NCBI GenBank assembly: GCA_021292105.1
Contig: CM037870.1
Location: 45,526,576 to 45,590,575 of the forward strand
Direction of reading: 5' to 3'
Length of the DNA stretch: 64,000 nucleotides
From: Anadara kagoshimensis
Taxonomy: Eukaryota; Mollusca; Bivalvia; Arcoida; Arcidae
Part shown: piece by piece, positions 8,414 to 64,000 of the stretch
Position numbering within the stretch: the first letter of the stretch is position 1
Layout: each line of letters opens with the position of its first letter
The notes under the pieces: generated by a model
Told to the model about the DNA's origin: nothing
What the model saw: only the letters and a program-made list of their open reading frames with translations
The model's database searches: none
Position numbers and translations under genes: made by a program

Positions 8414-8990
8414 AGCCTACCAGACAATCAACCAACCAACCCCAAACATCCCAAACCGACCAACCAAGCAACCTACCAGACAACCAACCAAGCCACCTAC
8501 CAGACAACCAACCTACCAACCCCAACCATCCCAACACCAAGCAACCTACCAACCCCAACCATCCCAACACCAAGCAACCTACCAACCCCAACCATCCCAA
8601 CACCAAGCAACCTACCAGACAACCAACCTACCAACCCCAACCATCCCAACACCAAGCAACCTACCAGACAACCAACCTACCAACCCCAACCATCCCAACA
8701 CCAAGCAACCTACCAGACAACCAACCTACCAACCCCAACCATCCCAACACCAAGCAACCTACCAGACAACCAGCCCATCAACCCCAACCATCCCAACACC
8801 AAGCAACCTACCAGACAATCAACCCATCAACCCCAACCATCCCAACACCAAGCAACCTACCAGACAATCAACCCATCAACCCCAACCATCCCAACACCAA
8901 GCAACCTACCAGACAACCAACCTACCAACCAAACAACCTGCAGACAACCATCCTACTAGACAACCAACCCACCAACCAAATGATCTTCTA
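8410..8990. repeat. Minisatellite, CCAAC-rich, unit 49 bp plus a shorter 33-bp form
   Basis: About nine units contain ACCATCCCAACACCAAGCAA and then CCTACCAGACAACCAACC. The first copies are a 33-bp form lacking the CAGACAACCAAC part, and flanking units are more degenerate. Because 49 is not a multiple of three and the array has no stops on one strand, it yields a long Pro/Thr/Asn-rich frame on plus and a Trp/Gly/Leu-rich one on minus. Neither is a gene. Confidence 0.95.
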
Positions 8991-61017: not shown

Positions 61018-61125
61018 ATGTTGAAAGCACAGAGTTGGGCTAATTTGAGTGTATCAGACTCACATCTTTATCAACAGCTAGATGGAGGGTACCACACAGA
61101 CCACAGGCGTCATCCTAAATATAGG
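61018..61125 (+). CDS. Internal exon 6 of the plus-strand gene (last visible)
   Basis: The acceptor is GTATTTCTAG. The donor is the less typical GTTAGT. The exon is 108 nt, exactly 36 codons, and in phase 0 at both ends. It encodes MLKAQSWANLSVSDSHLYQQ and then a Gly/His/Arg-rich end (DGGYHTDHRRHPKYR). The Met at the first position is internal, because exon 5 ends in phase 0 just before it. The gene must continue, since no in-frame stop is reached, but I see no further exon before the right edge. The next intron therefore probably extends past the window, or the last exon lies undetected. Confidence 0.75.
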
Positions 61126-61164
61126 GTTAGTAGATATACTAGTGCTGTCTATGCTATGAAATTT

Positions 61165-61325: not shown

Positions 61326-62531
61326 TAAGCAGATACTCTGATCATACTAAGAAAGTCTTGACCACCACCCGACAGACAGCAAATTTTAACTGCTTAAGCT
61401 TCTACTGATCTATTAAGCGTCTTTTTCATGATCATCAATACAAGAATTCTTTCGTTAAAAATAACTTTTGATGTACAAAAATTATAATTTTAATTATCTG
61501 TATTTATAGTTAAGATCATTTAAATTTTTTACTACTTTACCTAGAAGTAGCTAGATTTTATAATGACCACATTTCCATATTAATAAAAGATAAGTATATT
61601 AAGTTTTAATAGTGCTTCCTTGATAGACTGTGGTAAAGTCCATCATTTTTATGCTGGTTACTCTTCTGTAATAGCCCAAGAGCTAGTGGGGTTTGAAATA
61701 TGTGTCAATGGCCAAAAGCTTTGAAGGTTGTTTCTGATAGAAAAATGTCTGTAGTTTTCGAATTTGGGCGTCTTGTGAATGAACTCGTTTCCGATTTTTT
61801 TTCAGACGCGAGTTTTTACACTAGAATCGCATTTTTCAGCCGGTTTTTCGGTAATTTGATAATTCTGCATTATGGACGCGATATGGCCTTAAAATGTCTT
61901 ATTACTGATGCGGTTATCAAGAATTATGATCATTGTTGACATTTAAGTTAAAAACTTCTTGATACATTTCAGATTTTTTTTTAAAATAACTATTTTAGGA
62001 AAAAAATAGACCAAAAATTTTGCGTTTTTAATATTTTGCCCTCTTTTATGTCTTATAAAAAAATAATAAAAGCATTTAAGTGAAATGTTTTACCATATTG
62101 TCACAGCCTAATGTGTTTTGCATTCAATAAAAGTAGCTGCATATCATTTGGTAGGAAATTGCGGCACCCACAGTGGAAAAACTTTCCCCTACCCCAAAAA
62201 TTGCAAATTTCTCAAAAAATCGATCTTTACTACAAATTTTGCTATTAGTTGCCATACTGATTGTTATACCGTGTAAGCTTTAATACTTGGGTGACAACAT
62301 TGAAGACCTCTAACTAAAAACTTCTTGTTAAGCATTCAATCTCAATTTTGTGGCCAATTTTAAACAACCGAGTTTTGCGTTTTTACTTAATCTTTATTCG
62401 TTAAAGTCTTGTAGCGCATTCAAAAAAGCCTGATTATCAATATACTATTTTATTTAGAATCCCTGATGTGTGTGCTTTATTGTGCAAGTATAATGTGTAA
62501 CAAAATCGTCACATTAACCCATTACCCACGA

Positions 62532-62537
62532 TTTATT
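62532..62537 (-). promoter_or_regulatory. Candidate polyadenylation signal for the minus-strand gene
   Basis: TTTATT on the plus strand reads AATAAA on the minus strand, about 110 bases after the stop codon of the nuclease-like frame. The spacing suits a short 3' UTR. In an AT-rich genome this hexamer is common by chance. Confidence 0.4.
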
Positions 62538-62646
62538 CTTCCCCTACCCCAATATGCTAACGATATGCGAATTCACGGGATATACTGTGTTAGTGCTCTT
62601 AGACAGGCTGGTTCAAAATAACTCGTATTCATTCAGAATTATAATT

Positions 62647-63999
62647 TCATTCATCATCAGTGTCTTCACTATCACTACTGTCGGATTCACGTACATCCTC
62701 ATCTTCTCCCATGTCATCCTCTGTAAAAGTTGTACTGTCCATCTTCAGTCTTATATCTTTCGGAATCTGTTCACCTTCAAACCAGTGAATCGCATACTTG
62801 TTATTTTCTTTTTTCCATCCATTTTCTTGTGGAGTATTTAATGTAGGACAACTGCAATTGGCATGTTTCCAAAAATATGCAACATATTCTGTTCGGAGGA
62901 TTTTCTGAACAAGAACACTTTTACAAGGAGGTAGTGAACTCGGATCGGCTCCTTTGAGCTTTTCTAATGGGTCAGTTTGATTTGTTGGAGCGTATTTCTC
63001 TCTGAAAATGGCAAATCGTGCCTCATTTACTGTTTTAATGTTTTTTTTGCCATACATTTCACAGACAAAAGATTCCATTACCTTCATATCTCTTTCATTA
63101 ACTCTTTGATTTGTTCCAATATTTGAGAAAACGCTTCTGAAAGTTGCACTTTTTTCAACGATATTATAAGGCCTAATTTTACCTTTTCTAAGAAATGCTG
63201 CAGTATAATCACATCCAGTGAAAGCATGGATAGCTGGAAGAACTTGGCACATTTCGATCCCAATTTCATTGGACAGTTTTGTTAGATCAATAAATCGCCT
63301 AGTATTGGTGCCGTCAGTGCCTGAATCCATCCATATGTTTGCATGTATTTGGTGACAATGATACAATAAAATAACCATTACATCCGTGTCATTTGCTCTA
63401 ACCACTACGTTAGGAGAATCGGACCTTGAGGCAATGTATTGCACATGTAAGGTGATCCTGGTATCTGCCTCCTCGTGGGTACAGGCAAGATTGGACACTT
63501 CACTGCACACTACTGTTGCATCATTTTCGCAATAGAATTGATGGCAGTGGTCCTCTGTTGCATAATATAATGTATGGCCTGCAAGAATGTCAGCATAGTT
63601 ATCATTCTTCCATTCTTGTAGCAAAAACGATAGTAATGACCTCTTGAAATTAGCAGATTTCAAAGCTGAACGGAAATCATGAGGTCGCTTTTGTTTTGGG
63701 CCCATTACTACAATATCTGGTCCACTGCTCTCTCCTCGCATATCTCTTTCAATATCTTTGATGGATGGATGGACATATGTGTCACAAACAAAGTGTATTT
63801 CTTTTGCCAGTTTACATAATAGCTTGAGAATGGTTTTGGCTACACCTTCAAAAGTATCTGGTAGGTTTGACAGCAACTGTATAAGGAACATGGCATCAAC
63901 GACATAAGCATCAATTTGATTTGCAGCTGGAGGATCAGAATGAGCCTTGCTCTCTAACATTTTCATAAGTATTGATTTGTCGGTTTTATTCATATTCCC
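62647..63999 (-). CDS. FEN1/XPG-like (PIN-fold) nuclease-family protein, 5' partial
   Basis: The frame is intronless and open to the window edge. The first Met at 63993 gives 448 residues, but two codons upstream are also open, so the true start is probably outside. Motifs in order, counted from that Met, are Asp33 in VVDAMFL, Asp71 in FVCDTY, HEEADTRI at 173-180, Asp202 and Asp204 in NDTDVMVI, and FTGCDYTAAF at 258-267. They match the spacing and order of the acidic metal ligands of the FEN1/XPG 5' nuclease fold (N region, I region, GCDY-type helical motif). The last 30 residues are Asp/Glu/Ser-rich. The C-terminal half between 290 and 410 is unrecognised. I recall large families of such proteins in cnidarian and mollusc genomes, usually unnamed. 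The base composition and the lack of introns suggest transposon carriage or retrocopying, but this is inference. Activity is untested. Confidence 0.75.
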   Translation of the reverse strand, partial: GNMNKTDKSILMKMLESKAHSDPPAANQIDAYVVDAMFLIQLLSNLPDTFEGVAKTILKLLCKLAKEIHFVCDTYVHPSIKDIERDMRGESSGPDIVVMGPKQKRPHDFRSALKSANFKRSLLSFLLQEWKNDNYADILAGHTLYYATEDHCHQFYCENDATVVCSEVSNLACTHEEADTRITLHVQYIASRSDSPNVVVRANDTDVMVILLYHCHQIHANIWMDSGTDGTNTRRFIDLTKLSNEIGIEMCQVLPAIHAFTGCDYTAAFLRKGKIRPYNIVEKSATFRSVFSNIGTNQRVNERDMKVMESFVCEMYGKKNIKTVNEARFAIFREKYAPTNQTDPLEKLKGADPSSLPPCKSVLVQKILRTEYVAYFWKHANCSCPTLNTPQENGWKKENNKYAIHWFEGEQIPKDIRLKMDSTTFTEDDMGEDEDVRESDSSDSEDTDDE

Positions 64000-64000
64000 G

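Follow-up and report, generated by a model that had tools for sequence, protein, structure and literature searches.

The open reading frame at the right end of a 64,000-nucleotide stretch of the Anadara kagoshimensis genome (assembly GCA_021292105.1, contig CM037870.1; the whole stretch is hereafter the window) is very probably the C-terminal nuclease domain of a single long transposase, encoded by an autonomous DNA transposon of the AcademX type. The frame was open over 450 codons at positions 62647 to 63999 on the minus strand (448 codons counted from the first ATG). It ended only at the window edge, and the first codon of its parent open reading frame (ORF) lies beyond that edge, at 67284 in window numbering; the ATG at 63993 therefore encodes a methionine within the protein. 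The initial annotation had described a stand-alone protein and proposed to extend it to the right; the extension gave an ORF of 1545 codons from the first ATG, of which the 3' part (62647..64000, minus strand) encodes residues 1096 to 1545 and ends in the stop codon. The other 1095 residues lie outside the window and rule out a stand-alone nuclease gene. In some of its genomic copies, the frame sits in a longer open frame (1549 codons), which likewise shows that the window holds only the C-terminal end of a larger protein.

Element boundaries and target site duplications

The complete element extends over 7055 bp from 61672 to 68726 and leaves the window at its right end, with 61672..64000 (minus strand) inside. 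The terminal inverted repeat (TIR) that lies 3' of the ORF, at 61672..62583 on the minus strand, is 912 bp long, shares 97.8% identity with its 913-bp partner outside the window, and has the terminus TAGCCCAAGAGCTAG; the termini of the element read TAGCCC..GGGCTA. The left copy of a 3-bp target site duplication (TSD), TAA on the plus strand, is located at 61669..61671 and the right copy at 68727-68729, beyond the window. Ends were sought in 29 copies, from which L014 was dropped for a 3' end unmatched by the exact motif. An exact 3-bp direct duplication was observed in 28/28 copies with both ends read and a 4-bp duplication in 0/28, with TAA and TTA together making up 12 of the 28. These TIRs and TSDs, which the initial annotation had proposed to look for around copies, bear out its suggestion of a transposon-borne family.

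The same features bear on the reading of the frame as a captured or duplicated host gene for DNA repair, belonging to the FEN1/EXO1 family and repeated by coincidence. An EXO1/FEN1-like predicted fold with its acids in place would suit such a gene. At the window locus, however, it is refuted by one ORF that also holds a DDE region inside TIRs and TSDs, and long relatives whose names point to aphid, scale insect, sawfly, ant, and tunicate share the nuclease, which makes a host-gene origin extremely unlikely. A single-copy host FEN1/EXO1 gene was ruled out by copy number, TIRs, and TSDs.

Copy number and divergence

In the source genome (1.115 Gb, 36 contigs), 94 matches of 941 candidates were scored, and all 94 showed 100% identity across all 450 residues; the 1549-codon frame was open in 30 of them and a 1570-codon frame in one. 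Exact matches to the 31-bp terminus numbered 205 forward and 204 reverse genome-wide, compared to 0 and 0 for the reversed-pattern control. Among the first 100 terminus places listed, 96 formed 48 convergent pairs and 4 were unpaired; 47 of these 48 pairs spanned 7.02 to 7.07 kb and one about 5.4 kb.

A comparison of nine copies, with L011 as the reference and the window copy only partly included, revealed a common unit of about 7.05 kb with 99.7 to 99.9% identity to L011. The eight copies with both exact termini differed in 6 substitution columns, all singletons, among 7057 alignment columns, and in 20 indel columns, 11 of them in or near homopolymer runs. The 1545-residue ORF was intact in seven of these eight and frameshifted in L018, and L014 differed from L011 by 2 mismatches and 19 gap openings. 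Some of the single-base indels among copies may be assembly errors. The pattern points to a very recent burst that left about 200 near-identical copies.

The copy count proposed in the initial annotation therefore agrees with its view of a recently spread family, and the gene, multicopy and without introns in this genome, is intronless as described. The DNA of the frame was also CpG-richer, as had been noted (observed/expected 0.51, against 0.31 in the remaining window), although 29 of 302 other window chunks of the same size reached this level.

Predicted fold and conserved acids of the nuclease domain

A FEN/PIN-like core fold was found in the predicted model of the C-terminal domain by Foldseek and VIA-align structure comparisons, in agreement with the FEN1/XPG-like nuclease fold proposed in the initial annotation. 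The putative FEN/XPG-superfamily (EXO1/FEN1-like) domain corresponds to residues 7-390 of the 450-residue frame (62830..63981, minus strand). It resembles human EXO1 and FEN1 in the predicted fold over these residues, in seven acids, in the Lys/Arg pair downstream of the second Asp, and in a GCD motif with a GK turn and a helix behind it. In contrast to the human enzymes, to which identity was 11 to 13% in structural alignments, it is placed within a 1545-residue transposase and has its own C-terminal extension and acidic tail. The tail, encoded with the stop codon at 62647..62706 on the minus strand, is acidic, as the initial annotation had noted, and is predicted to be disordered (pLDDT < 50 at residues 432-450 of the frame).

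Conservation of the acids was counted in 64 aligned sequences, namely, the window frame and 63 relatives, in the 448-residue numbering. The first acid, Asp33 (63895..63897, minus strand, as are all the sites that follow), was D in 59/64 sequences with gaps in the other five. Asp71 (63781..63783) was D in 62/64, within the motif D-x-Y-x2-P-S-I-K-D-x-E-R, and was profile-aligned to EXO1 Asp78. In HEEAD at residues 173-177 (63463..63477), whose acids presumably belong to a metal site of FEN type, E174 was kept in 63/64, E175 in 63/64, and D177 in 64/64; both D202 and D204 of DTD at residues 202-204 (63382..63390) were kept in 63/64. D262 of GCD at residues 260-262 (63208..63216), present in 63/64 with one gap, was profile-aligned to the EXO1 GCD ending in Asp225 and preceded the conserved GK turn. 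All of these sites lie exactly where the initial annotation had placed them. Judged from the alignment, their conservation is not due to chance, and the seven acidic metal ligands of the FEN/XPG superfamily appear to be present; the pairing with EXO1 is alignment-backed for D71/D78 and D262/D225 only, and the remaining pairings follow the order of the acids and the FEN1 motifs.

Sequence-based searches gave little. The Pfam scan of the 450-residue frame returned 0 families, and scans of the 64 aligned sequences (E ≤ 0.1) gave scattered weak matches, including DUF6589 in 6 sequences and NYN_YacP in 3, with no XPG family among those listed. One chance-level match resulted from a PDB sequence search with the single protein.

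The structural matches bear on whether the domain is instead an Xrn-type 5'-3' exoribonuclease acting on RNA, e.g., host transcripts or silencing small RNAs, and not on transposition intermediates. XRN1/XRN2 (Rat1) share the common core fold and gave the top Foldseek matches, accounting for 7/7 at E ≤ 0.001, and their VIA-align alignments covered 309 to 330 residues, compared to 253 to 264 for EXO1. The VIA-align ranking, however, placed EXO1 (15.1) above XRN (13.6), with FEN1 (14.1) tied with XRN. The motifs alignable by sequence, G-C-D-Y and that around Asp71, are those of EXO1, and the domain lacks an RNA-directed context; in long relatives covering at least 96% of the query, it shares one polypeptide with the DDE region. 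An Xrn-type activity on RNA is thus considered unlikely. What the comparisons add is a confident structural model of a transposon nuclease that is nearest to EXO1/FEN1 and XRN and has strongly conserved acidic sites.

Upstream parts of the transposase

A two-domain model of residues 400-1500 (1101 residues) was built from 49 sequences, 48 of them from the searches for relatives, and reached a pLDDT of 88 and a pTM of 0.61. Ahead of the nuclease, two strands were followed by an insertion, partly disordered and containing helices, then by a strand-helix-strand-helix-strand succession, an extended helical segment, and one more helix. The conserved D477, D642, and E890 were located on the first strand, just past the fourth strand, and in a late helix, respectively, which suggests a DDE transposase of RNase H-like type that carries a helical insertion. 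DUF6589 (PF20231), alone listed in the Pfam scan of the 1545-residue protein, matched weakly inside the DDE region (residues 654-893); its score was below the Pfam cut-off in this protein, and the family is precomputed for several relatives. It was named in no paper of the literature collection searched. In the N-terminal part, the His/Cys pairs H86/C89, C137/C140, and H193/C196, each conserved in at least 28 of the 29 aligned rows, are probably zinc-binding.

Classification

Within the Academ superfamily, TSDs are 9 or 10 bp long in AcademH and 3 or 4 bp in AcademX, and these lengths have been related to the encoded helicase and nuclease, respectively (PMC10045372). Academ elements are reported to have undergone a bivalve-specific amplification, with curated elements averaging 5565 bp (PMC10294476). 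The features of AcademX found here were the conserved D477, D642, and E890 in RNase H-like order, the encoded nuclease, the 3-bp TSDs, and the TIRs. AcademX is described in the literature as a eukaryotic DNA transposon with a DDD/E transposase, a nuclease, and 3- or 4-bp TSDs; the window family is distinguished by its length of 7055 bp, TIRs of about 0.9 kb, and TSDs of 3 bp in every copy read. AcademH, assigned to the same superfamily in the literature, has a helicase and TSDs of 9 to 10 bp (PMC10045372), in contrast to the nuclease and 3 bp of the window family, and was ruled out by the TSD length and by the Pfam scan of the 1545-residue protein, in which no helicase was listed.

Alternatively, the element might belong to PIF/Harbinger or EnSpm/CACTA, superfamilies that likewise have 3-bp TSDs, and might have acquired a nuclease domain. 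The TSD length, the share of TAA or TTA, and the weak similarity that Foldseek gave to Transib, which belongs to the CMCT clade (PMC12730594), would fit such an origin. The termini TAGCCC..GGGCTA, however, differ from the CA..TG given there for CMCT elements in most cases, and a single ORF with a nuclease and 3- to 4-bp TSDs is the published mark of AcademX (PMC10045372); this origin is therefore regarded as very unlikely. EnSpm/CACTA itself was ruled out by the termini, which are not CA..TG (CACTA).

Several observations weigh against the AcademX assignment or its parts. The superfamily name was assigned only from architecture and TSD. No solved transposase clearly matched the DDE region, with only a weak match to HzTransib (Foldseek E 0.35, with the two-domain model and match lists filled by the nuclease), for which reason the DDE identity is inferred; D886 beside E890 was invariant (49/49) and offers an alternative third catalytic acid, and with a pTM of only 0.61, the model does not fix the domain packing. 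For the nuclease, the Foldseek TM-scores to Xrn chains were modest (0.43 to 0.47 by query length, rmsd 7.7 to 10.7), the EXO1 sequence match was not significant by itself (E 0.35), and the structure-specific activity of the putative FEN-type domain is predicted only. Finally, shorter frames were found in 63 of the 94 scored copies.

The first reading of the frame as the best candidate in the window for an undescribed system was not upheld, and the candidate is resolved as an AcademX-type transposon family, since a DDE transposase, a nuclease, and 3- to 4-bp TSDs are those of the published lineage (PMC10045372). The literature search returned no paper joining Academ with XPG; the papers listed for the Academ transposon or XPG nuclease dealt with repair, and those listed for transposons with a flap endonuclease did not concern such an element. 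This says nothing about priority or about whether this particular family has been published. The AcademX nuclease was reportedly called XPG-like by Kojima in 2020 and in earlier Repbase reports.

Relatives and genomic surroundings

One long relative (P0002), with 50% identity over 97% of the query, was filed in a metagenome-assembled genome of Candidatus Thiodiazotropha, a clam symbiont; it is most likely animal host DNA within a bacterial assembly. A second, distinct transposase relative with one internal stop was found in the source genome (G000:C18:23757118-23760621). It was the best match of the hagfish protein P0047, above the copies of the window family, and the genome thus hosts more than one lineage. 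Among viral contigs, 16 pattern matches were obtained, none of them a relative.

On the right, outside the window, an open frame of 851 codons on the plus strand (L010:781-3333), without a Pfam family, lies about 55 bp beyond the element end, and a splice-like exon on the same strand is located near window positions 61019-61127. Together they suggest that the element sits antisense within an intron of a host gene. At L010:6934-7933, the genome has 1000 N in a row, which accounts for the long frames listed there in all six frames. A 49-bp tandem repeat of 11.5 copies at window positions 8416-8977 overlapped a 191-residue low-complexity frame, which is probably not a gene.

Proposed mechanism and significance

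In the mechanism considered, the N-terminal Cys/His clusters would bind the transposon ends, and the DDE domain would cut and join the 3' ends across a 3-bp stagger. The two-metal FEN-type nuclease would cut the 5' strands, either to finish the release of the donor element or to trim 5' flaps where the element joins the target, and the gap would close as an exact 3-bp duplication. In a tentative proposal, which we hold to be possible but rather doubtful, the DDE domain joins the 3' ends, and 5'-strand cutting by the fused EXO1/FEN1-type nuclease would determine the 3-bp duplication and make the element independent of flap-repair factors of the host.

If true, the second-strand step of this DNA transposon would fall to a repair-type nuclease on the same polypeptide, and independence from host flap-repair would help explain how the family burst into about 200 copies that are near-identical and mostly full-length. 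The low divergence (6 substitution columns in eight copies) and the full frame in 30 of the 94 scored copies suggest recent activity, and the family could therefore help to address the question of why a flap-type nuclease is part of a DDE transposase.
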